DNA of 64,000 nt, taken from assembly GCA_029204225.1 (NCBI GenBank), contig CM055099.1, positions 66,677,852 through 66,741,851 on the forward strand, written 5' to 3'. The stretch's first letter is position 1. Each line of letters opens with the position of its first letter. Under the pieces are notes generated by a model. It made no database searches. It was given only the letters and a program-made list of their open reading frames with translations, and was not told the origin of the DNA. Both the position numbers and the translations under genes were made by a program. Origin of the DNA: Diphasiastrum complanatum. Lineage: Eukaryota > Streptophyta > Lycopodiopsida > Lycopodiales > Lycopodiaceae. This document shows positions 6,180 through 59,005 of the stretch, piece after piece.

Positions 6180-6834
6180 TGTGAAAATTGTCAACATTTC
6201 CTAGCTAGTTTGAGGCCTAAATTGGCTAAAATTGTAAATAGTTTTGGTTCTGGAGTTTCACACGTGTGAACCAGGCCACAATGTTTTTATTTACTGTATT
6301 TTTTCAGTATGATGAAGTGTCAAACTTCATACCCTTCAAAATGAGACCATTTTGATGTATTTTGGTCATATAAGCCATTTTTAGCTATTTTTCCTATATA
6401 GGGAATATCTAGGGTCAAGTACCTTCTAGAGAGAGGAGAGAGAGTCATCTTCCTCATCCATAAATAGTAGGGAAGTCGTGGAGAACAGGTTGGAGAAACC
6501 TTTTGTATGCTTCATTGAGATCAATAGATCATTGTCATTGTTTCTTCCTCCATTGAGAGCATTGTTGTGTGTATTGTCTTCAAGCTATTGTGTATGATCT
6601 TAGGTGCTTTCCAAAAGTGGTAGGCTGATGTATTATGGACTGTATAATGCTATTTTGGGCCGCACTTGATGTTTATGGAAGTTTCCATTTGTGATAAATG
6701 CTTTTTGATCAAGTTCTTTGCATTCTAGGTAGCATAGAATGTGTTGCCAATTCCTAGCTTATGTAGTTTGGAGTGCAAGCATTCAAGCCAATGATCTTGG
6801 AGTTTAGATCCACTTAGGATCTGTATTTTTCACA
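6180..6834 (+). repeat. Copia-1 5' LTR
   Basis: It begins TGTGAAAATTG and ends TTTTTCACA, followed at once by the primer-binding site. The U3 part holds a 14-bp perfect palindrome with a G-box core (ttcacacgtgtgaa, 6257-6270; CACGTG 6261-6266). A TATA-like 'ctatata' lies at 6394-6400, about 215 bp into the LTR. Transcription would start roughly 30 bp downstream of that if it is the functional TATA element, which is an inference. Confidence 0.95.
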
Positions 6835-11000: not shown

Positions 11001-11960
11001 GGTAACAATCTAGATATAGATGAAATCAAGATGGCACTCAAAAGAGAGTTTGAAATTCAAGATCTTGGTAAACTTCATTATATCTTAGGAATAGAGATTA
11101 TTATAACTTCTAAATCTACATTCATATGTCAAGAAAAGTATGTTAACTCTATTCTAAAAAGGTTTCATATGGAAGATTGTAAAGTTGTTTCTACTCCTAT
11201 GGAATCAAATGTAAAGCTAACTACAAGAAGTAATGAAAGATCCTTCAAGGACATTACTCTCTATAGAAAGCTAATAGGATCTCTTATATGGTTAACCATC
11301 ACAAGACCTGATCTAAGCTTTGTGGTTGGTAAACTAAGTCAATTTATGCAAGATCCTAGTGAGGCTCATTGGAAGCTAGGAAAGAGAGTACTTAGATACA
11401 TCTCGGGATCTAGAGATTTTGGCATCTTGTATGGAGGTACTACACCTAACCTTTGTGGATTTTCAGATTCAGATTTTGCAGGTGATCAAATGGATAGGAA
11501 GTCAACAAGTGCCTTTGCAATCTATCTTGGAGATGGAGTGGTCTCATGGCTATCAAAGAAGCAACCAACTATCTCTCTATCTTCCACCGAAGCCGAGTAC
11601 AAGGCATTAACAACATGCACCAAGGAGATTCTTTGGATCAAGAGGATGTTATTGGATCTTCACTTGCTGGAACCAGAGAAGACTCCAATCATACTTTGTG
11701 ATAACCTTTCAGCCCAAAGCTTGGCAAGCAATCCTGTTTTTCATGCAAGGAGCAAGCACATTGAGATTGCTCACCATTTTGTGAGAGATCAAGTCATTGC
11801 CAAAGAGGTGGAGCTTCAACATGTCTCTTCAAAGGAGTGTGTGGCTGATATCTTCACCAAACCATTGGGAAAGGACCTATATTTAATGCATAGATCTAAT
11901 CTTGGAATGTGCTCAAAGACTATGTTGAAACTAGCATCCAATGTTGAAGAGGGAGTGTGA
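8007..11960 (+). CDS. Copia-1 gag-pol polyprotein, intact
   Basis: One 1317-codon frame encodes the whole retrotransposon polyprotein. Gag is at the N-terminus; a CCHC zinc knuckle (CFYCGIKGHFANEC) starts at residue 250. The aspartic protease motif DSGA starts at residue 309. The integrase His-Cys domain begins at WHKRLGH (H442), and its catalytic triad is D506, D568 and E604, giving the copia spacing of 35 residues between the last two. Reverse transcriptase has YVDD with Asp at 992-993. RNase H carries SDSDFAGD near residue 1153 and SSTEAEYKAL near 1192. The ATG at 8007 is preceded by leader with no competing in-frame start. The TGA stop lies inside the first bases of the 3' LTR, so the ORF runs through the polypurine tract. 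No frameshift or premature stop was found. Confidence 0.97.
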   Translation: MASNGGIMLESSERLSSSNYSTWKVRMESLLELNELMDIVAEIEERPLTLQEQQSFDKKAKRALHIIKMNVTNELLKEVGKCQSASEAWNALKKLFESKSTSRVLTLRRQIFSSRQREGESAHAFILRVKSLSDDLACIDENIKDGEIVQVMLNGLLNEHANLVQSFAIQRVLPSVVDLQEILLAEEHRLQSKLDGASLQGGGEEAFFTKGKFKGKGKGKGKWSKGGNFDHDDHSSSSSSTKNNKSKFKCFYCGIKGHFANECYKKKREQGERQGNLTIDEEEHNTCESLVMTSSLLANIDDNDPWWIDSGASSHMTRHKEYFTSLLSYEGEGNIIYTANDGQCDIKGIGTIPISLSTNRKANLENVLYIPSITKNLLSVSQMIDKGLDVEFIGDACLISKCGSLIAQGRRHGKLFKLDACVISNHEGCMAREQLTNQEVWHKRLGHPNFKSLEVMAKKELVLGLPKSLVANNSVCEHCALSKSHRLAYSRSTSRSKEAFQLVHSDIHSSSTTSNGGAKMYATFIDDFSRYTWIYLLKSKDEVFAAFVKFKNEMENQFNTKIKCLRSDNGGEYTSNRFKDFCIAHGIKREMSSPRTPQQNGVAERKNRTLCECAKAMRLHANLAKSFWGEALACANYLCNRWTSASLDGKTPHEVLYGRRPSVKHCRIFGCTCFVNITLDDRTKEDPSSKKGVFVGYSEVSKAYKVYIPSTKKVVISRDVIFHEENVSNVVDVDVDVPTNHHDVQDVLDEDGDATPKQTSRKTQRQRAKPSRLTYDEKGKQVVDNSNFAFLTSFDEPTCVGEAIQKKEWIQAMDHEHQALIKSNTWRLVKLPKDKKAIGCKWIFKIKTNQDGSINKYKARLVAKGYAQEYGIDYDETFSPVAKMVTIRILISLATLYDWDMWQMDVTNAFLNGDLEEDIYMEQPEGYVSHDEPNHVCYLQKSLYGLKQAPRSWYAKLNSFLLSQNFVMSEYDHSLYFRLNENDITLLLIYVDDIILSGGNNLDIDEIKMALKREFEIQDLGKLHYILGIEIIITSKSTFICQEKYVNSILKRFHMEDCKVVSTPMESNVKLTTRSNERSFKDITLYRKLIGSLIWLTITRPDLSFVVGKLSQFMQDPSEAHWKLGKRVLRYISGSRDFGILYGGTTPNLCGFSDSDFAGDQMDRKSTSAFAIYLGDGVVSWLSKKQPTISLSSTEAEYKALTTCTKEILWIKRMLLDLHLLEPEKTPIILCDNLSAQSLASNPVFHARSKHIEIAHHFVRDQVIAKEVELQHVSSKECVADIFTKPLGKDLYLMHRSNLGMCSKTMLKLASNVEEGV
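11943..11955 (+). other. Copia-1 polypurine tract
   Basis: The purine-rich 'gttgaagagggag' abuts the 3' LTR start and still encodes the last residues of the polyprotein (VEEG). It would prime plus-strand DNA synthesis. Confidence 0.85.
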
Positions 11961-12610
11961 AAATTGTCAACATTTCCTAGCTAGTTTGAGGCCTAAATTG
12001 GCTAAAATTGTAAATAGTTTTGGTTCTGGAGTTTCACACGTGTGAACCAGGCCACAATGTTTTTATTTACTGTATTTTTTCAGTATGATGAAGTGTCAAA
12101 CTTCATACCCTTCAAAATGAGACCATTTTGATGTATTTTGGTCATATAAGCCATTTTTAGCTATTTTTCCTATATAGGGAATATCTAGGGTCAAGTACCT
12201 TCTAGAGAGAGGAGAGAGAGTCATCTTCCTCATCCATAAATAGTAGGGAAGTCGTGGAGAACAGGTTGGAGAAACCTTTTGTATGCTTCATTGAGATCAA
12301 TAGATCATTGTCATTGTTTCTTCCTCCATTGAGAGCATTGTTGTGTGTATTGTCTTCAAGCTATTGTGTATGATCTTAGGTGCTTTCCAAAAGTGGTAGG
12401 CTGATGTATTATGGACTGTATAATGCTATTTTGGGCCGCACTTGATGTTTATGGAAGTTTCCATTTGTGATAAATGCTTTTTGATCAAGTTCTTTGCATT
12501 CTAGGTAGCATAGAATGTGTTGCCAATTCCTAGCTTATGTAGTTTGGAGTGCAAGCATTCAAGCCAATGATCTTGGAGTTTAGATCCACTTAGGATCTGT
12601 ATTTTTCACA
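11956..12610 (+). repeat. Copia-1 3' LTR
   Basis: Same 655-bp length as the 5' LTR and the same sequence on visual comparison of all blocks. It is followed by GAATT, the right target-site duplication. Confidence 0.95.
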
Positions 12611-13361: not shown

Positions 13362-13515
13362 ATGTTGGTTGTTTTGTTTTCTTTGGTTCTATTTCGTGTT
13401 CGTTCGTAATTATTGGACTCTATGTAGATAATGCATTAATAATATTTTTATTGAGTCATACACCACTTATTTGATGCCTGAATAAGAAACATACGCTTTA
13501 CAAGATGTACACAAT

Positions 13516-14636
13516 GTGTTTGGGACAATCTCAACACCAGCAACCACATCCATGCCGAATAGGGGAACTATTCTCCCTCTTCAATTCAATGTGACTAGAA
13601 CACGTCTGGGACACGGTGCGAAAATAATGTCCACCAAAAAAGACATCACTAATTTAAGAAAACTCCACACCCCACATTCTAAAAGACCACTAAACTTTTC
13701 AAAATTCAAGCAAGTGGTAGCCAAAAAGCGAACACGCATACGCATCCCAAAGTTACAAAGAATTGTTTGTGAGAATTGTCAAGTGGATAACCTTTTTGTC
13801 CGGGGCTTGGACAACATCACATGCAAAAATTGTAGTGCGATTATGACAAGGGAGATAGAAAAGAGCAAGAGGGCATGCACCCCTATGGAGGTGAAGGAAA
13901 TATGTGGAGAGACAACAAAGACACAACCAGAGGAATAATAGAGATGATCATATTGATGTGGAAACAATAAAAACTGAAAATTCCACCCAAGATTGTGACT
14001 TGGAAATTTTCCTGATGAGTTCATTTGCACAATCAAGTCATGGTCCAAAGCCAATGTCCCAGTTAGAGTGTTGCAAACATGAAAATGACATTTTCCAGCA
14101 AATAGAAGCTCTCGACAAACAACCCATACAAAATAGACTTCTTTGAACATTGTTGTGTGGCATTGAAAAACAAGACAGCTCGAATTTTAGACACACCAAT
14201 TCAGGCTGGATTGAGTTATTGGCAGTACACAATTTTGGATAGTTGCAACGATGCAGTTTGTGTGATGTCCAACTTTTTCTCCAACTTCGTGGAGGCAAGG
14301 AATTACGATCGAGCCAAGAAGTATATTGCTAAGGACATTTTAAAGAAAAGGATCGTAATCCTTCCATATTGCTCGAAGTAAGTAATGTCTAGCATTAGGA
14401 GGTCATCACTTTCTAAACCCCAAAACCTAGTTCCTAGACCCTGAACATGCACTATGTATTTCAATTACAGTGAGCATTGGAGCTTGGGACTTTTGATCAC
14501 ATGCGTCAGTAATGAGGGATCTCGTAGATGGGTTTGCTTGAGACTCAACTCAATGACATCAACCCACCAAAATTTTGATAGGCAAGTCTTGTATTCCTCT
14601 CTCACATCTCATGAAATCAATGACCCTTTCTCCTAA
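13516..14636 (+). pseudogene. Ulp1/C48 protease relic with CxxC/CxxC N-terminal region
   Basis: Frame 13516-13938 encodes 140 residues. It includes basic stretches and CENCQ...TCKNC, a CxxC-x17-CxxC pattern typical of a zinc ribbon. After stops and frame changes, 14157-14377 encodes a segment ending IVILPYCS that aligns with the pre-protease region of the genes at 31.8 and 55.4 kb. An intron at 14378-14470 (GTAAGT...TACAG) is followed by EHWSLGLLITC...VCLRLNSMTSTHQNFD, carrying the Ulp1 catalytic His. The triad Asp position is Asn (LNS). The frame stops at 14636, and the Gln/Cys exon was not found. Intron position and phase equal those of the other two copies. No histone-like segment is visible upstream. 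Confidence 0.75.
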
Positions 14637-14873
14637 TTCAAAGTGGCTTTTGCAGGATGGTCTACGATATAGTTACATGGTTCCAAGTGAAAGCAGCATC
14701 CAGTTCTATTCTAATGATTGATGCCCAGGTTGTACATATCCATAAAATTTCAAGTGAATGAATAGGTTGACATAGAATTGGTTATTGTTGAAAATGCTTG
14801 TTGTAGTGATCTACAAGGTTTTAGTTTCACAACTATTTAGTCTTCTATTGAATTATGTATGATTTGAGCTTCA

Positions 14874-15410: not shown

Positions 15411-15436
15411 TGCTAATGGAAATGAAGCTAAAGGAG

Positions 15437-15544
15437 GCACTCTTTGCCTCCAATCCACCTATCGATGGCACCATGTTGGAGAAGGCACGACAGCTGAGTG
15501 TTGTGGATGTGCAGCGTCTCAGATCTCTGATCAACATAACATAG
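15437..15544 (+). pseudogene. Germin-like protein 3' end (fragment)
   Basis: This frame encodes ALFASNPPIDGTMLEKARQL and then ...DVQRLRSLI before a TAG. It is the conserved C-terminal helix region of germin-like (cupin) proteins. It duplicates the end of the pseudogene at 36600-37070, and the downstream 400 bp including the GA tract matches 37071-37455. The upstream cupin barrel is absent here; instead the copia-linked module abuts it. Confidence 0.85.
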
Positions 15545-16099
<555 letters not shown>

Positions 16100-30243: not shown

Positions 30244-30430
30244 TGAGCTGTTCTGTTGTGTTGAATAAGATTATCAGTGTAGGAGTCTTAGACTGCCATG
30301 AAAGAGAGGTTGCAGAAACGATTTGGCATTTGAGACAACCATGCAATCCTCTAATATTGATAATTTGATATGAAGAGAATGTAAAAATAATCTAGACATC
30401 AGAGACAGCCAAACATTTCTCTTTATAATG
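30244..30430 (+). repeat. Repeat unit shared with 5019-5213
   Basis: It matches the 5-kb copy from 'gagctgttctgttgtgttga' through 'catttctcttta' with roughly one change in ten bases. It overlaps the low-confidence 3' end of the minus-strand ORF2 locus. Confidence 0.8.
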
Positions 30431-31789
30431 ATCCAATAGCTCATAGTTTTCATGCTTACTCAGATCAACGTAAGCAGCATACACTGCAAAATGAGACGAT
30501 CTGAGCATGGTGTTCACTGATCCATATCCTAAAATTTTAACCGCAATAGTTTTCTTTACAAAAATTATTTTATGCACCTTATTAAAATTATGTCCTCCAA
30601 GAAAATGAGACAGTGCCTTAATTGCCACAATCATAGTTTCACCATGTTGATGAAACTTTGAATGGGCAACACTTATCTCCTTATTTTTTAAGGACTATAG
30701 TGCCCGAGTGCATGATCTCTTGAAAATTCTCCCACAAAAGATCTCTGCCCTCCTCGACGAATTGCGAAATCATCAAGGAAAATTGTTTATTGAAATGATA
30801 AAAAACAAAGTAAGCTCCAGTATATAATCTGACATAACAAATATACTAGTACTTGATAAGAGACAAAAACTTACGCATACGGCTTTGTCTTCTCTGATTA
30901 CTGTCTCTCCATCAATATTATGTCCACCTTTCGATGTCAATATTGTTGGTGAATAGACAGTTGGCTGTGGAAAACCACGTTGATTTTGGATTCTAAGAAA
31001 CTCCTCCTCAGAAGGTAGATCATCTTCTTTGTTGCGCATTTCCTCCACAGCCATTTTCAGGCAATCTTTCCCTGAATAAAACTTATCATTATGTACATCG
31101 TCAACATCAGGGAGAAGATCATCAGCATCAAAATCCGATATTGTCAAAAAGAAATTATTATCTGTAATATAAGTAGGCAAAGTAGTCAAATATTTATCAG
31201 AAGGAAAAATGATAGTGGGTGTTCTAGGGCCTATAGAAGTAGCACTATTTCGAACATGATCAAAATAAAAACAATCATCTAAATGAACACACGGGTTTTA
31301 TTAAAAAAATGTATCTATATCTACAATCTTTGACTTTTTAGACTTTGTACCACTAGAAGAAGCTGCTTCAGAAGTGGAGAGCACAGAGTCCGAATCGTCA
31401 GAAATATTTAACAAAAGGAAAAAAACAAAAGGAGACTGAAAATCAACAAATCTACATTTTTTATTGTAAATTGGACACTCATCTACAGACTTGAGATCAT
31501 TATGTAACTTGGTAAACATTCTGTCAAGCTTAGCTTTGTAGATATGCTTGTCGAGTGCCACTAGGTCCTGATAATGAATCATGTCTTTATTCTGAGACCT
31601 GAATAACGGAGTATTGAGCAGGGACTTAAATCTGAGATATATCCCAAAAAATGCCTCCACACCAGGGCCCTCAGTTATAGAAGGTAGAATAAAAACAAAA
31701 GGAGAAAAAAGAAATTTGAAATAGTCCAACCTATTAGTAATACCAAATTCATTAAAAAAAGAAAGCAAACTAGATTCAAAATTAGACAT
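30390..31789 (-). pseudogene. ORF2: unknown protein directly downstream of the histone-Ulp1 gene
   Basis: It begins MSNFESSLLSFFNEFGITN at 31789 and overlaps the stop region of the upstream histone-Ulp1 gene (ending 31782). The frame runs 162 codons to DIDTFF, then the tandem stops TAA TAA (about 31301-31306). It continues in the same frame as NPCVHLDDCFYFDHVRNSA and on to INREDKAV-like residues. A plausible splice donor GTAAGT follows near 30871. Segments are acidic and Ser-rich. Further minus frames at 30392-30634 could be a later exon. A copy of the first codons (MSNFESSLLSFF) occurs on the plus strand at 34721. No domain is recognised. Its adjacency suggests a two-gene unit, which is inference. 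Confidence 0.5.
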
Positions 31790-33861
31790 TTAAACAAAAA
31801 TAATAGAACTGAAGTTCCAAATATCGCGCAACAACTCTTTCTATAATCTCACCCTCCTTTGTTTCGGGAAGGGCCTCAAAACCTTTTAAGGGAAGAGGAA
31901 TATCTGCTACAAAATTGCCTTCCTCTGTATTAGGAAGGACTTTTATTCCTTTTTTATCATATAAAATAAGATCTGCATCCTGAACAACTTGAAAGGCTGT
32001 TAAGGTAGGAGCAGCTTCCTTTTGAGGGCCCTCGATTGCAGGTGCAACGCTTACACCATACTGGGCAAAGGTTCTGATCAACTCTTGCCAAAATCTACAT
32101 ACATCATCAGGAGTATACGGCTCAAGAGTGAACTATCATCACAAAACACAAGAATCAGCAAATTATAAACAATGATAGTAATAAAAAATGAACCAAAATG
32201 AAATGAACTACAAATGAATAGAATATTATCTTTTCAATATCTACATCCGTTTGTAGATTATACCATTCAAAAAATAGCTTCGTATTATACAGGACGAACC
32301 ATGCACAACTAAAAGCGTCATTTTGTTGTACACACTGCATATATAGAACGAAAATTAGTAATATTGATAGAAATTTTATTTATGCTATGACGATACATTT
32401 GAATTAAAAAAGGAATACATGCATATCAGAGATAAATTGAATATACCTTGAGAGATTTAATGGTTATATCTCCAATTGAAGTTGTCGTTGTCGAATTTTC
32501 CGAACGGCATCATGAAGTAGAGAATCAAATTCTCTATGTGTATTTGCAGCTGAGTTTAATTTTACACATAGAAAATTTGATACTCCCTCCTTATTTATCT
32601 TTACGAAAAGAATGTCTAGGCTCCAATGCCGACTGCAACAACCAAGATACAAATATCGTTATATTCATATTTATGAAAAAAATCCGTTTTTATTAAAGCA
32701 ATGAGGCATGTAACAATCTAGATTAAGGCAACAAAAAGAAAAGAGCAATCCTTACTTATTTTCATATGGAATCAAATAAAATTTTGCCATAGGACTGCAC
32801 TCGATAAAATAGACAGCCTTCTCAATATTGGCTTCTTTTGCGTTTACCGCTCCCATGAAAAAGGGACTAACTACAAAAACTGTACCATGGGAATCAAAAA
32901 TAATACTATTCTGCAAAAAAAAAACTCCAGCCTCTACTATTGCATCTGAAATTTCTGAGGTCTTATCTTCTAGCTCGGCACAAAATCTGGGACCTAATCT
33001 AAAGCTTCTACTTGTATCTGGAAGAAAAAAATCAAAAAAGTTGCTGAGAAGATTAATTTTGTTAGCTAGGTAGGCCTCGTATTGATTATAATAGTCAGAA
33101 TAAAAAAAAACCTAGGCTGGATCATATGGAATTCTCACAAAAACATTATGTACAGGAGCAAAAATAGAAGTGGAAAGAATATTTACAGATTTCTCTGTTA
33201 TTCTGTCTAGATCCTCTTGGGTAATCAACACTTTTGGTGATGAAACCTGTAGAGGAGTTGGACGAATAATAGGAGGAGGACTGGGTGAAGATTCTTGATC
33301 TGAGTCAGATTCTCCAGCATCTGACTCAGAGCTCAAGAAGACACGGGGTCTCTTGGCCGAGATACGTCTAGGAGGAAGGGAAGCAGCTGGCCTTCGAGAT
33401 CCAGCCTTCTTGGGAACAACCTACTTTCTCTTTCTCTTTATATCCAAAGGCAGGTATCTGGAGGTGCTGGCATTATCAAAATGCAGACCAGAATATCTGT
33501 CTCGAAGCCTTTTGAGAATGACTAAATCCTTTGGCATGATGGTGACATGCTTACCATGCACTGCCAAAAGACAAGTATCCTCAAAAAACTGGGACAGAAA
33601 ATTTTCTACAACACCCTACAAGGCCTGCATGGCTGTCATGGCAAAACGAACATCCAGCCCAAGTGAAAGAGTGACATTCCGTACAGATCGGCCGAAAGGA
33701 GCTATAGGGATCAACCATTCAGTTGATCTCTGGAGTTTTTTTATCTCCCTCAGCCAGACTTGCTTCCTGCCACGCCTACGGCCAGTATCAGAGGAAAGAC
33801 GGGAATGGGATGGCTATACAATGGTGATGGCATGGGCGGTGGATTTGGTCCCGGCCATCAT
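31782..33861 (-). pseudogene. Histone H3-like / Ulp1 (C48) protease fusion gene, copy 1
   Basis: Four exons: 33861-32756, 32632-32447, 32334-32230 and 32132-31782. Exon 1 starts MMAGTKSTA, like the canonical H3 tail. It continues with LREIKKLQRSTEWLIPIAPF, DVRFAMTAMQAL, FFEDTCLLAVHGKHVTIMPK and LKRLRDRY, matching the H3 fold from alpha-N to the C-terminus. A basic and then acidic Ser/Pro-rich linker leads to a protease region ending FYLIPYEN. Exon 2 has the Ulp1 His (RHWSLDIL) and LNS at the triad Asp position. Exon 3 has the Gln and Cys (QQNDAFSCAW, with Gly after Cys changed to Ala). Defects: TAG at codons 16, 82, 147 and 250, a one-base loss in exon 2, and the exon-3 donor GT changed to AT. 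No other stop occurs in the 368 exon-1 codons. The likely role of an intact relative is a chromatin-bound SUMO-type protease, which is inference. Confidence 0.88.
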
Positions 33862-34260
33862 TCTCGGAAGAAGAAAGTTAACAAAAAGAACTTTGAACAA
33901 AACAAAAGTGGATCAAAACAAAAAAATTTGTGATGAAAGGGCGCTTGAGATCGATACAAGCACTGAATATCGGTTTCGAATGCACGATCTACAGAGATTG
34001 TTTGCAGAAAAGAGATGCGCGCTCGAAAGCGATATTGCACAGCAGGCGGTATCGGACTTGAGCGCACTGTGAGAGCGCGGAAGCTTGAAAGATGAAAGAG
34101 CGCGCTTGAGAGCGATATCGGGAGCTAAAAACAAAAATTTTGCAAAAAAAAATGAAAATTCCGAGGATTTATATATACAAAATTTTCGCACGTGTGAAAA
34201 GACGGTCGAGACACGGTCAGATGATTAGACCACGTGGAATGTCCGTACGGACAATGATGA
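33862..34260 (-). promoter_or_regulatory. Putative promoter and 5' leader of the histone-Ulp1 gene
   Basis: The minus strand carries 'tatatataaa' near 34162-34173, about 300 bp before the ATG, a plausible TATA box. Upstream are several ACGT-core elements (cacacgtgcgaa near 34186-34197, ccacgtgg near 34230). The leader between TATA and ATG repeats a motif of the type 'gatatcgctctcaagcgcgc' three times in variant form. These are sequence observations; promoter function is inferred. Confidence 0.5.
34186..34258. repeat. Direct repeat of promoter element, copy 1 (copy 2 at 34770-34849)
   Basis: The stretch 'cgcacgtgtgaaaagacggt' to 'ggacaatgatga' recurs at 34770-34849 in the same orientation with substitutions and a short insertion. 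Both contain CACGTG-type cores and 'accacgtggaa'. Confidence 0.85.
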
Positions 34261-34399
34261 GCCAGTTATGAGGCCATGTGGGCTGAGACACGTGTGCGAA
34301 TCCCTAATCGACGTGTGTCATTCTCGCACGTGACAGATGTGAGATCAATCATACTAGGTATGGCGCATTTAATTTGGCTAATCACAAGTTGACACGTGT

Positions 34400-34768
34400 T
34401 CCTTTGTCAGTCCACACGTGCGAATTTGTTTTTTTGGGTTCGAATTTTTACGCAAATTCACGATTGCTTTGCTGGATATCAATTTCAAGCGCGCCGCTTG
34501 CTCTCATTACATCTTGTTGGCTAATATGTGCCTGGATCCGATACTGCATCGTCCGGTATCACATTCGATCACGTCTCGCAACCCTTTTCTTTTCTGCACT
34601 CGAATTCGATACTCCAACTTCAAATATCTCTCTCGAGCGCACGTTGATTTGACGTGCTTGTCAGACCTGGGGTTTGCGCCTGAGAGCGATATTTGGAACT
34701 TTAGTTCTATTATTTTTGTTTAAAATGTCTAATTTTGAATCCAGTTTGCTTTCTTTTTTTTATGAATT
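34400..34768 (+). repeat. Inverted fragment of the histone-Ulp1/ORF2 unit
   Basis: Read on the plus strand, 34412-34500 resembles the minus-strand leader of the histone-Ulp1 gene (cacacgtgcgaa, 'ggatatcaatttcaagcgcg'). The 34685-34765 part matches the minus strand of 31742-31830, including ATGTCTAATTTTGAATCC, the ORF2 start. It forms a roughly 80-bp inverted repeat flanking the histone-Ulp1 gene and points to an inverted, mostly deleted second unit. ORFs on it are short and uninformative. The 34850-35190 stretch shows nothing recognisable. Confidence 0.65.
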
Positions 34769-35199
34769 TTTGCACGTGTGATAAGACGGCCGAGACACGT
34801 GTCATCAGATGACTACACCACGTGGAAATTCCGTACTGATAATGATGACCCCCACGTGTCCCCATAATTGGTATATTATTATCAGTTCCTAATATTGATA
34901 TAGAAAATATAGAAAAATTGATTGAATAGAGATCTATTTGTAAATAGAGAGACATAAAAAAAAAAGATATAATCATTTTACTTGTAAACAACCCGTTTAT
35001 GGGTTTTTTTATTGATATCACAATAGATTCTTACAATCAGCTTGTGTCCATAGTCTAATAATGGAATGCCATTTTTCTATAATGATAAAAAGACATTGGC
35101 ATGTATTTGCTGATAGTGAATCTCAATGTTCTTCCATAAGTTGGATTGTTTCGCCAATATTCGTGTTAAGCGGGTAAGGCATGGTCATTTGTACACTCT

Positions 35200-36585: not shown

Positions 36586-36605
36586 AAACCCTAAACCCTA
36601 AACCC
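36586..36605. repeat. Telomere-like (CCCTAAA) x3 motif
   Basis: 'aaaccctaaaccctaaaccc' matches the plant telomere repeat or telo-box sequence. It lies right at the 5' edge of the germin-like coding relic, so it could be intronic or promoter sequence. Three units are too few to call an interstitial telomere. Confidence 0.8.
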
Positions 36606-37070
36606 GGCAATACTTCCAATAAATTGGGCTTAGCAGTGACAGCGGCCAATGCCCTCACCTTTGGGGGTCTCAACACTCAGGGGGTCTCTGCAGCTCGCAT
36701 CGACTTTGCAGAGAACGGCCTCAACCCTCCCCATGTTCACCCCCGTGCGGCTTAGATTCTCTTCCTCGCAGAAGGCAAACTCCTAGTCGGTTTTGTTACC
36801 AGCACGCCGGATAATAATCTCTTCGCTCAAACGCTCAATGCCGGGGAACTCTTCATCTTCCCCAGAGGACTCGTGCATTTCCAGCTCAACGTCGGCTATG
36901 GCACAGCTCTGGCTTTCTCTTCCTTCAACAGCCAGAATCAAGGCACTTCGCAAGTTGCAAAGGCGCTCTTTGCCTCCAATCCACCTATCGATGGCGCCGT
37001 GTTGGAGAAGGCACTGCAGCTGAGCGCTGCGGATGTGCAGCGCCTCAGATCTCTGATCAGCAAAACATAG
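36600..37070 (+). pseudogene. Germin-like protein (cupin) pseudogene
   Basis: The frame begins [20 protein letters not shown] and contains [24 protein letters not shown]-stop-ILFLAEG, GELFIFPRGLVHFQLN and NPPIDGAVLEKAL, ending LRSLISKT. This is the extracellular cupin barrel of germin-like proteins, which bind manganese through three His and one Glu. The metal His residues HVH and H of VHFQ are kept. The Glu codon expected after HPRAA is TAG (36753-36755), a GAG-to-TAG change removing the Glu ligand and truncating the protein. Otherwise the frame is open to the normal C-terminus, suggesting recent loss. The signal-peptide exon is missing or lies at 36133. A fragment copy is at 15437-15544. 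Confidence 0.9.
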
Positions 37071-37524: not shown

Positions 37525-38010
37525 ACCTTTTTACTAGTCAACTTTAGATTTAATTAAACATTTAGGATGCACATTTAAGTACTAATTTTGACTGACTTTT
37601 GTACAGCATAATACAACTTGCATAAAAAAGACTTTGACATGTTGTTTTTGGGTATAATCCACTCATTACTTTCAAAATTGGAAGGAGGTATAGACTCTAG
37701 TTTTCCTACTCCTCTCTTCAAATTTGGAATATACATGGTATCATTAAAAACAATTCGAAATTTTCCAAGTTCTTCTTGGGTTCGTCCTTTATATTTCAAT
37801 CTACCAATTTATGAACGAATGACATCTTTGATACTTGAAAGACGCTTTTTAGGAATGTGTTGGTGTATATTTTATGGATACGAATATGAAATACAAAAAA
37901 CAATTGTAAGTTTTTATTATAATAAACAATTAAATAATTAAGTTTTCTATAAGTAATTCAAAAGATTAGTACAATACTTAGAGTCACATATTCAATAATC
38001 ACAAAGATTC
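37520..38010. repeat. Left arm of large inverted repeat (right arm 39165-39620)
   Basis: The reverse complement of this segment aligns with 39165-39620 over most of its length with substitutions and small indels. The arms flank a spacer of about 1.15 kb that holds the 38.3-39.1 kb repeat. Both arms contain pieces of the unknown gene family seen at 57.4-58.5 kb. Confidence 0.85.
37575..37799 (-). pseudogene. Fragment of unknown family (homologue of 57.4-58.2 kb ORF)
   Basis: The 74-codon frame contains YKGRTQEELGKFRIVFND and GVGKLESIPPSNFESNEWII. It aligns with YRGRSPKELADCGIYFYE and GFGKLEAIPLPSFQSDEWPT of the gene at 57.4-58.2 kb. Only this exon-sized piece remains. A more degraded inverted sister lies on the plus strand near 39370-39560. 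The family is not recognised. Confidence 0.75.
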
Positions 38011-38249: not shown

Positions 38250-39135
<886 letters not shown>

Positions 39136-39164
39136 TGTTTATATGCATTTAGAGCTAAATGTCA

Positions 39165-39620
39165 ATTTGATGAATCTTTGTGATTATTGAAATGTGACTA
39201 TAAGTATTGTACTAATCTTTTGAACTACTTATGAAAAACATTTAATTGTTTATTAGAATAAAAAATTACCATTGTTTTTTGTATTTCATATTCATATTCA
39301 TCAAATATACACAAACAGAAGCCTAAAAATCTTCTTTCGTGTATCAAAGATGTCATCCGTTCATAAATTGGTAGATTGAAATATAAAGGATGAACCCTAG
39401 AAGAACTTGGAAAATTTTGAATTTTTTTAATAATACTATGTATATTGCAAATTTGAAGGGTGGAGTAGGAAAACTAGAGTCTATACCTCGTTCCAATTTT
39501 CAAAGTAATGAGTTGTATTATATTGTACAAAAGTCAGTCAAAATTAGTACTTGATCCAAAAATGTGCATCCAAAATTTTAAGTTTAATCTAAAGTTCACT
39601 AGTAAAAAGGTTGTGTGTGT
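39165..39620. repeat. Right arm of large inverted repeat
   Basis: Inverted match to 37520-38010. On the plus strand near 39375 it reads KYKG-stop-TLEELGKF, a broken copy of the unknown-family fragment on the minus strand of the left arm. The next 330 bp (39621-39949) show nothing recognisable. Confidence 0.85.
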
Positions 39621-55424: not shown

Positions 55425-57105
55425 TAAACTGGCCAGTCATTCCGGGATCTGAGGTTACAGTTACTCGACTTTGGGCACAAATACAAATCAAGTGCCGATC
55501 TCTGCATGCAAGAAAGTGCCGATCAGAGGTCAACAGCTCTATTGATCCCAAGAGCTCCATTCTACCGTGCTGTCCGGAACATAACAAAAAATGATCTCGG
55601 ACAGCACGTTAGATTAACACCGAGTGCTCTTCAGTGCCTTCAGGAGGCTGCTGAAGATTATATTAGTCTTTTTTTTAGGATTCTTTTTTGCTTGCCATCC
55701 ATACCAAGAGGGTTACCATAATGCCCAAGGATTTTTAACTTCTGATGAGAATGAGGGATAGATACTATAGGTTACATGTATCTCAGCCTGCTGCTCCTAG
55801 ACCAACTCATGTAGATAGGACTCATCTTCCTACGAAGCGTCCTAGGAAGCAGACAGCCCCCAGGCGTGCTCCTAAGAAGTGAAGCCTATCCCAAAATCCA
55901 TTGTAGATAATGCTGCTGTAAATATAGCTACCTCTGTTTTGGATACTCCTATAATTGTTGTAGATACTACACATCCACCTCCTCCTCCTCCTCCCAATTT
56001 CTATACATATATAGATTCGGATGGTTATCTTAAATTTGAGAAAGACATATCGGATGCTATAGATACAATTGGTACTCCTTTTTGTTTTAGACTAGATGGA
56101 CTTGATTTTAGTATTAATTTTAGAGTTCTAGATTGTCTGGATCTCAAAGACAGACGGGCTTCTATCAGTGATCCTGTGATAGAGTCCGGGCTGACACTCT
56201 TGTAATTTGACATTGCAAGAGATTCATCAAACGAGTTGCTGGTGCTAAGTAACTTTCTACTCCAGGCCTTCAAGGAGAATAATGACACATTGTCACAGTG
56301 TCTGACAAGTGGATTCACACCAGCAACAAAGTATCTGGTCATTCCTTATCATACCAAGTAGGATATATTAAGTGCTTCTTCCTGTTTTATGTATTAACAT
56401 TGACATTTTCAATTTAAATAGTTCTCAGAATTGCCGCTAAAGTACTTTCAATCTTATTTTGCAGTGACCACTGGAGTTTAAACCTGATCTCTATTAAGAG
56501 ATTTGTAAATAATATTATTAAATGTTCTTGTGTCAAGATGAATTCAGCAAGAAATACGCATAATGATGTAGATATATACATTCCATATCTAAGTAAATAT
56601 ATTCCTACAGACGTTCCCCATTCCGTGGACTGGCAAATCGTCAGCTTGGAGGTAAACTCTGTCTTTCTTACTAGCATTTTGAAATCAGTATTCTAATGAG
56701 ATATTTTCAATCTAATTCATTCTATTTCATAATTGATTTCTTGTGTGCTGAATTATTTTGCAGTCACCCCAACAAAATGATTCATTCAGCTGTGGGTGGT
56801 ACACATTGTACAATGCCAAGTTGTTTTTTGAGTGGTTCATCCTTCAACAAGATGTTGATATTTCTAAGGTAATAAATTCTGTTTATTCTTATTTTGGAAT
56901 CATGATTAGTTTTCTATTCTGGTGATGTTATTGGCCATTACTAATACATGAATGTTCTATTTTGCAGTTTACACTTCCTGAGTACACATCAAGCCAGGTG
57001 TACAGATTTAGACAAGAAATTATCCTGAGTATACTGGCTAGGGCAAGGCTTCAGCCTCCCGTTATTGATGATGGTGCAAAGGATGATGTAGTTGTACTAA
57101 ATTAA
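55393..57105 (+). pseudogene. Histone H3-like / Ulp1 (C48) protease fusion gene, copy 2
   Basis: A possible start ATG at 55393 gives MAGGKAPSG. From 55506 the H3 fold is clear: QRSTALLIPRAPFYRAVRNI, HVRLTPSALQCLQEAAEDYI. After a one-base loss near 55680 it continues FLLAIHTKRVTIMPKDF-stop-LLMRMRDRYYRLHV, followed by a basic tail. A further frame change at 55880 enters the protease part (55879-56357, one TAA at 56203). Introns 56358-56464, 56652-56763 and 56869-56967 have GT/AG ends. Exon 2 has DHWSLNLI and the Asn-for-Asp MNS; exon 3 has QQNDSFSCGW with Gln and Cys intact; exon 4 ends VVVLN-TAA at 57105. Exons 2-4 are fully open. Exon lengths 187, 105 and 138 compare with 186, 105 and 351 in copy 1. 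Confidence 0.87.
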
Positions 57106-57426: not shown

Positions 57427-58518
57427 CTAGTATTTTGTTCTATTTTGAAATGGCAATAAACATAAAGTACTTACGAGTCTTCCGTTGATGATAAATCTGA
57501 AATATGTTGGTAGATTGGTTTGTAATAGCATGAGCTCTGTTCTGATAAAATCAAGCTTCCAGTGCTCTTCCACCTCAACCATAGTCAAATATTCCTCATT
57601 GTAGATAATGCTTATCTCCATTCGGTTTGTGTGACCATTTAGTTCAAGGTCTTGATCCAGTGGTAGCCATGTACCTTCAATTTTCTTGTATCTCTGGTAG
57701 CTAAATGTGAGACTGAGCATTTGTTTTTCGATATGATAACGAAAGATCATTGAGGACTTTTTAATCCTGCATTCTATGTCATTATTTGTTTTACTATCCC
57801 AGCCTTGATCCATGAGATCTGACAAAGTCTCATCTGATAAATCCTTGCAAACAAATAAAGTTGGTGTCCTACGAACACTAGCACTCGAGAAAAAATCAAC
57901 AAATGTATGCAATGAGATAAACCAACTTAGGTGAACAATTTGCGAGCCTGTGCTTATCTTCATAGCGTTTTTAATATCAATGAGTAGCTTGCATCTCAAG
58001 GATTGTGAAACAATGTTGTCAGGAGTAGGCCACTCATCACTTTGAAAACTAGGCAATGGAATTGCTTCAAGCTTGCCAAAACCTCCATCTGTTTGTGACG
58101 TATATAAAGATTCATAAAAATAGATACCACAATCTGCAAGTTCCTTTGGACTTCTTCCTCTGTATTGTAGCTTTCCAACATCAGAGTGAATCACGTCTAA
58201 TATTCCTGCAAGTGATTGTGCGGGCTCCCATTCACTTATGCATGATGGATATAACTCTGAAAGAAAAAAAACAATGTTGAAGCATTTAAATCATAATCTA
58301 AAGAGCATCAATAAAGGAAATCACCTATGATTGCTGTAGAGTGCATATGTTTTGATATACTTACAATTACATTTTTGATGATCATGAGGATTGATATCAT
58401 GTACTTTGATTTCTGAATGCATATATACATGTTGCACTAAGAATTCTAATATCGATTGACCTCCCGGGGTAGTCTTAAACTCCAAAATTTTTGCTTTCCA
58501 ATAAGATTTGTAAGTCAT
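57427..58518 (-). CDS. Unknown gene convergent with histone-Ulp1 copy 2
   Basis: Exon 1 (58518 to about 58365) starts MTYKSYWKAKILEFKTTPGG and ends at a GTAAGT donor. After an intron ending TTTCAG (about 58261), a frame of about 275 codons runs ELYPSCISEWEPAQSLAGIL, KLQYRGRSPKELADCGIYFY, GFGKLEAIPLPSFQSDEWPT, LFVCKDLSDETLSDLMDQGW, LSFSYQRYKKIE-like residues, to a stop at 57427. Simple joining creates TAG at the splice junction, so either the model or the gene is imperfect. Fragments of the same family lie at 37.6-37.8 and 39.4 kb, so it is a repeated family. No known domain. Confidence 0.5.
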
Positions 58519-59005
58519 TTTTGCCCTTTTCTTTTGTCAAAAACTGCCCTTTGATGATGGATGCAGCAATACCCATCAGTTCTTCATATATTTTGTTGGC
58601 TTCCAATTATCAGCTTCATCTTTTTCATTGTAAAGAATCATAGAATCGATTGTAGATCTGGGTCTCCTCTCCATTGCTTTTTTCAAAGCTTGGGCGCCAA
58701 AAATCTCTCTGATATGTTACTTAATTTTAATTTTTTGTATCACATTTAATCTAATGTGAATGCCAACATAGTCACAATTACTGTGTATACCATATTTTAT
58801 GTAACTGTACATATTATATTTCTATAACTGTAACTAGTATAGTGAGAAAATTTCATTATACTAACCAACATAGTAAAGTAAATATAACTTGAGATATTGA
58901 CGTCGGACAGATTAGCTCGTGTCGGGCAGGAAGAAGAAACCAATGGGATACGTTCATGCTGCCCGGACACAAATTTCAAAGTTTTCTATATTGCAATTTT
59001 ATTTT

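Follow-up and report, generated by a model that had tools for sequence, protein, structure and literature searches.

The subject of this analysis is a 64,000-nucleotide window of the clubmoss Diphasiastrum complanatum (contig CM055099.1, positions 66,677,852 to 66,741,851 of the forward strand), which contains, at 33861-31782 on its reverse strand, a decayed four-exon gene in which a histone H3 domain is followed by a linker and a Ulp1/SENP-type (C48) protease domain. This gene is referred to as copy A. A single gene encodes the H3-like domain and then the C48 domain, and open copies of it exist in the same genome. The H3-C48 gene belongs, with at least three others, to a dispersed repeat that was mobile or amplifying in this genome. 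Its product may be a mobile-element protein that carries a protease activity of the SUMO type to chromatin and counteracts silencing, a reading whose chances we consider about evenly balanced.

The H3-C48 gene and its open copies

The first-pass annotation of this DNA had described a single frame from 33861 to 32756, interrupted by TAG codons alone, that runs from an H3-like region into the protease, and this description holds. The frame contains only four stops, all TAG (codons 16, 82, 147 and 250), against 23 and 26 stops in the other two sense frames, and a first-order Markov control averaged 20.5 stops, with none of its 5000 runs having as few as four. The H3-like region is real. With TAG read as Gln it matched the Pfam Histone model at 82.2 bits (E=4.6e-23; cut-off 26.4), and with X at every stop it still scored 72.9 bits. 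The sequences of 176 solved structures matched it at E<=0.001, and the top 60 listed were all H3 (best E=1.2e-19). The same Pfam model scored 69.0 bits in the complete genome copy L020 and 83.5 bits in a further copy, L016. A fold model built with 27 relatives contains four helices (alphaN, alpha1, alpha2 and alpha3) at a mean predicted local distance difference test score (pLDDT) of 76, and a Foldseek search with this model returned nucleosome H3 chains (best E=3.7e-6, template modelling score by query length about 0.5). A single-sequence model of exon 1, made with no relatives, had a mean pLDDT of 35 and no usable fold. In terms of identity to plant H3.1, copy A reached 45% and copy B, a second copy in the window, 51%.

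Typical copies start with MARTKSTARAITTVQ. At H3 position 9, 21 of the 23 readable loci have Ala, the remaining 2 have Val (one by eye) and none has Lys; these loci include near-doubles, and the other 7 of 30 were unreadable, five having no exact TIMPKD frame and two a damaged start. K4 was present in 22 of the 23 (by eye).

Three further exons follow, as had been proposed, and the His, Gln and Cys of the protease stand in order in copy A, copy B and L020. The motifs were assigned to all three of these exons in the first-pass annotation, whereas the His lies in exon 2, the Gln and Cys both lie in exon 3, and exon 4 is a C-terminal extension. The comparison with the C48 profile that it suggested succeeded for copy B (PF02902, 39.6 bits, E=6.6e-10; cut-off 20.7) and fell just short for copy A. 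A profile made from four sequences (copy B, L020, copy A and a C48 relic, relic C) found SENP8 (3.5e-5) and yeast Ulp1 (3.7e-5) in the PDB set.

A search with exon 1 of the window's own genome assembly (1.745 Gb) produced at least 112 matches, dispersed over the genome (111 of 10203 candidates scored), and in 105 of the 112 one match covered residues 38-317, from H3 into C48 (by eye). Internal stops were present in 100 of the 112. Twelve were free of stops, and ten of these covered both domains (by eye), so the uninterrupted relative that had been sought in the source genome was found. Two loci, L014 and L016, share 99.5% identity across 19.7 kb, and C12 and C2905 are apparent doubles; the ten stop-free fusion rows therefore represent about 8 distinct loci. 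One copy that was read through in full, L020, has four open exons, three GT-AG introns and no stops, and it is predicted to encode an H3-C48 protein of 590 aa. The earlier proposal that one protein joins histone H3 to a Ulp1-type protease is thus borne out at the level of uninterrupted genome copies.

Among the matches listed for the whole-fusion query (7993 candidates scored), no annotated protein carried both domains; the listing included only a fragment, the D. complanatum protein P0001, whose end matches exon 4 of copy A (78% identity over 9% of the query). An H3 domain inside a long protein was found in 0 of 35 candidates from the protein database. The joined frame therefore rests on the genome sequence. 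No relatives of the fusion were confirmed in GTDB genome contigs or in IMG/VR.

Both domains evolved under purifying selection. The pooled ratio of nonsynonymous to synonymous change (dN/dS) within the family was 0.68 for the tail, 0.50 for the H3 fold, 0.88 for the linker, 0.46 for the N-terminal half of C48 and 0.66 overall, in a sample of 26 of the 30 fetched loci from which four near-doubles had been dropped. Copy B (55.5-57.1 kb, forward strand) has the same order of H3, basic linker and C48 as copy A, and its introns are at homologous places. The two copies are 36% identical over their length. Between them, dS in H3 was 2.0, which is near saturation, with dN at 0.37, and synonymous change in C48 was beyond saturation, with dN at 0.55.

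Copy A itself is dead, as it carries the four TAG codons, a frameshift in exon 2 and a lost intron 3 donor, which reads AT and not GT when compared with L020. A reassigned TAG codon was considered as an explanation of the four stops and was rejected because genome copies are broken by all three stop codons and because Gln occupies each of the four TAG places in the open copy L020. Decay through CHG methylation as the source of the TAG codons was unsupported (CHG observed/expected 1.34 in exon 1).

The repeat that carries the gene

When the 20-kb surroundings of eight copies (two of these surroundings being near-identical) were compared in pairs, a common layout emerged: gene T (+), gene 2 (-), an upstream region of about 1.3 kb that contains repeats, H3-C48 (+) and gene X (-). 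Some copies do not have all parts. For the gene T exon, 150 of 9077 candidates were scored, so its matches number at least 150, and at least 17 of the 150 were within 10 kb of an H3-C48 match, compared with about 0.2 expected. Fifteen of these 17 were upstream on the same strand, and two were on the opposite strand. The number of dispersed matches and the association with other repeat genes support the earlier suggestion of a mobile or rapidly duplicating family. Two copies have a sharp left edge in common. A copia remnant adjoins one fetched copy, c12, on its left (by eye). Genes T, 2 and X had no Pfam match above cut-off, and T and X also had no PDB match.

The gene span of 33861-31782 given in the first-pass annotation was confirmed except at its 3' end. 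From 31827 downwards, the sequence of copy A matches gene 2 of the same repeat in inverted position, and for this reason the last 46 bases (31827-31782) are unlikely to be the original 3' end. With respect to the sequence on either side, the middle segment 34851-31828 lies in inverted orientation, and this accounts both for an 84-bp inverted repeat and for the position of gene 2 downstream of copy A. A reading of the 84-bp repeat as the terminal repeat of a 3-kb element was dropped, as an inversion junction fits instead. The coordinates are collected in Table 1.

Table 1. Features of the H3-C48 copies and of associated genes in the window
Feature	Position	Strand	Remarks
Copy A exon 1	32756..33861	-	H3-like tail and histone fold, basic/acidic linker, C48 N-terminal half; 4 TAG inside
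Copy A histone match	33505..33849	-	frame residues 5-119; VTIMPKD exact; Pfam, PDB match, fold model
Copy A exon 2	32447..32632	-	catalytic His (RHWS), LNS motif; one frameshift
Copy A exon 3	32230..32334	-	Gln and Cys (QQNDAFSCAW); end placed by comparison with L020
Copy A exon 4 as read	31782..32132	-	C-terminal extension; below 31828, inverted neighbour segment
Copy A upstream region	33862..34851	-	TATA-like TATATATAAA at 34177-34168 (by eye); direct repeat 34181-34263 / 34765-34851
84-bp inverted repeat arms	34686..34769 and 31745..31827	partners	read as internal inversion junction
Gene 2	30416..31827	-	open reading frame pieces 31789-31301, 31297-30773, 30694-30392; elsewhere upstream of and divergent from H3-C48
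Copy B H3 fold	55521..55780	+	broken by frameshift and stops
Copy B linker and C48 N-terminal half (exon 1 end)	55876..56357	+	
Copy B exon 2	56465..56651	+	His
Copy B exon 3	56764..56868	+	Gln, Cys
Copy B exon 4	56968..57105	+	
Gene X near copy B	57427..58716	-	convergent with copy B; homologue pieces beside H3-C48 in copies c18, c8, c117 and c10
Relic C	14106..14582	+	C48 relative, intron at same place as in copies A and B

Gene X occurs three times in the window, at 37554-37907 (-), at 39029-39515 (+) and beside copy B at 57427-58716 (-). Upstream of copy A (33862-34770), CpG observed/expected was 1.46, compared with 0.44 for the window. No H3 was found in front of the C48 domain of relic C. 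Around this relic, at 13486-14640 (+), there is a Cys-rich, zinc-ribbon-like stretch upstream of the protease (by eye; Pfam matches below cut-off), so the relic perhaps represents the same protease type with a different partner.

Two further features of the window were recorded. A germin-like (cupin) gene lies at 36600-37070 (+; Cupin_1, E=1.7e-37). It contains a TAG in frame (by eye), and a shortened duplicate of it is present at 15435-15580 (+). A pair of identical 655-bp direct repeats (6180-6834 and 11956-12610, 5.8 kb apart) flanks copia-type gag and integrase domains and is probably a young long terminal repeat retrotransposon.

The genome also holds a second repeated histone family. In a search with the Selaginella protein P0115, which is CENH3-like by sequence, 150 of 5723 candidates were scored. 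Rows 1 to 13, at 68-69% identity, are presumably ordinary H3 genes; the other 137 had 43-59% identity, and many lie in open frames of 200-440 aa (examples in the table of rows are G000:C10:47288869 and C17:36125833). Five of the 137 were read (L047-L051), and in each of them a long proline-rich N-terminus is followed by a CENP-A-like H3 domain, which means that the genome contains at least two repeated families with embedded H3 domains. The two members that were scanned matched Pfam Histone at 89.9 and 100.6 bits. C48 was not found by tblastn in any of the five 3.2-kb stretches around them. A common origin of both H3 types was neither supported nor rejected by the approximately unbiased (AU) tree test (p-AU 0.28).

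Possible role in chromatin and alternative readings

If the fused protein is made from an open copy, it would enter chromatin through its histone fold, pairing with H4 directly or by way of H3 chaperones. At chromatin near copies of the element, silencing factors or histones could lose SUMO or a related modifier to the protease domain, and a tail with no K9 could not receive H3K9 methylation. The benefit to the element would be weakened silencing, in a role comparable to that of the VANC-Ulp1 (KIU) proteins of Arabidopsis transposons; it is the missing K9 together with this KIU/VANC precedent that suggests such a benefit. The missing K9 also leads to a sharp prediction, namely escape from H3K9 methylation. 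If the proposal is true, a hybrid of a histone and a SUMO-type protease, encoded by a repeat that amplifies, would act as a direct molecular tool where mobile elements and chromatin silencing are in conflict, and it would offer a testable case for the open question of why plant transposons carry Ulp1 domains.

Several observations weigh against this proposal. Taken alone, the C48 domain scores weakly in A-type copies (copy A 19.1 bits, L020 12.9 bits, both below the cut-off of 20.7). These copies have Cys-Ala at the active site where the aligned Ulp1 and SENP sequences have Cys-Gly, and all four aligned sequences have Asn at the usual place of the Asp in the C48 triad of His, Asp and Cys. With the Asn, the Cys-Ala and the weak score, protease activity is uncertain. 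The selection evidence is uneven as well: the 15 pairs formed by six copies that are open or nearly so include 3 with dN/dS near 1 (0.97-1.08), as expected of decaying copies, and the A-B comparison (pN/pS 0.46, bootstrap 0.39-0.55) was made on 255 codons from alignable blocks only, which favours conserved stretches. In terms of the element itself, no transposase was recognised in Pfam scans around copies A and B and of the T-gene region of three copies, all scans being of broken copies; a MULE (Mutator-like element) transposase had no match in any of these stretches, and the rve domain was absent from the scans around A and B. An inverted right-end partner of the shared left edge was not found, and no end pair or target-site duplication was identified.

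The likeliest alternative is that the histone fold is a targeting device only, which brings proteins or intermediates of the element to preferred, possibly centromeric, chromatin for integration, while the protease aids transposition through protein processing or by desumoylating repair factors. We regard this as possible but rather unlikely. It is favoured by the presence of the motif LIPRAPFGRSVRN (LIPxAPFxRxVR) and the absence of GTVAL, both features of some CENP-A-like rows, although LIPRAPF occurs in other divergent H3 rows too. On the other side, the RWTAE(A/G)L that marks the start of alpha2 in plant CENH3 rows is missing; A-type copies have, for example, VRFAVTAMQAL at this place, and copy B has VRLTPSALQCL. 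The trees were built on 96-97 columns with long branches. In two such trees, the fusion copies group together (support 92/88 and 97/93) beside long branches, and free searches placed the fusion H3 outside plant CENH3. A tree that holds the fusion H3 with plant CENH3 was 8.7 log units above the free search in the first dataset (p-AU 0.67) and 10.7 log units below it in the second (p-AU 0.18), so a plant CENH3 grouping is compatible with both tests. Mutator and Ginger elements repeatedly carry Ulp1 domains, for which a role in transposition has been proposed (PMC2836005).

A flea H3.3-like protein (Ctenocephalides felis P0016; P0037 is also listed) has WLREIKKLQRST in common with copy A, and in the trees it groups with the fusion copies. 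Both are long branches, and the grouping may reflect false attraction or may be a hint of animal-type CENP-A.

A second alternative is that H3-C48 belongs to a host gene family, encoding a chromatin protein of the clubmoss, which repeats spread passively and which serves the host rather than the element. The ordinary introns, the TATA-like box and the purifying selection would agree with this, but among at least 112 dispersed matches 100 have internal stops and many have neighbour genes in common, and we consider it improbable. A last alternative, in which the fusion is only a chance reading of two unrelated adjacent genes as one frame and no joined product exists, is very hard to sustain even though A and B are both broken and no annotated two-domain protein was found, since joined frames are stop-free in 10 of 112 rows and L020 is a complete gene. 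When both window copies are read with X at every stop and shift, neither A (178 residues) nor B (131 residues) has a Met between the H3 fold and C48, an argument against two separate genes.

Together with the second histone family, the proposal that H3-C48 opposes silencing can be extended. A lineage of clubmoss mobile elements may have taken over H3 variants, in one family as an H3 with no K9 joined to Ulp1 and in another as a CENP-A-like H3, so that the elements would build or modify nucleosomes for themselves. We see roughly equal reasons to accept and to doubt this idea of transposon-encoded histones. Transposon-encoded core histones are not known to have been described. In the open-access literature, with subscription journals outside its scope, nothing relevant to an H3-Ulp1 fusion or a transposon-encoded H3 was found.

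Comparison with known systems

The N-terminal part of the protein resembles histone H3 and CENH3 in its histone fold, in the MARTK start of typical copies and in VTIMPKD; it differs from them in that position 9 is not Lys and in that its C-terminus is fused to a linker and a protease. The C-terminal part resembles the Ulp1/SENP proteases (MEROPS C48) in the order of His, Gln and Cys and in the profile matches to SENP8 and Ulp1, and it differs from them in the Asn at the Asp place and, in A-type copies, in Cys-Ala for Cys-Gly.

Among mobile elements, Ginger1 transposases are described as having a C-terminal Ulp1 domain (PMC2836005). The likeness is that of a Ulp1 protease domain on a DNA transposon, but Ulp1 is joined to an integrase-type transposase in Ginger1 and to histone H3 here.

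The other comparison is with KIU, the VANC-Ulp1 of Arabidopsis MULEs of the non-terminal-inverted-repeat type (Vandal); similar Ulp1 domains are present in MULEs of grapevine, melon and rice, and VANC proteins that carry Ulp1 act on the DNA methylation of their own elements, with escape from silencing reported (PMC13317346). The main text of that review mentions no histone domain (the word histone occurs 0 times), and the H3-C48 repeat, unlike these elements, has no MULE transposase match in the stretches scanned with Pfam. In both cases, a mobile element of a plant has captured a Ulp1 domain and carries it as one among several element genes.

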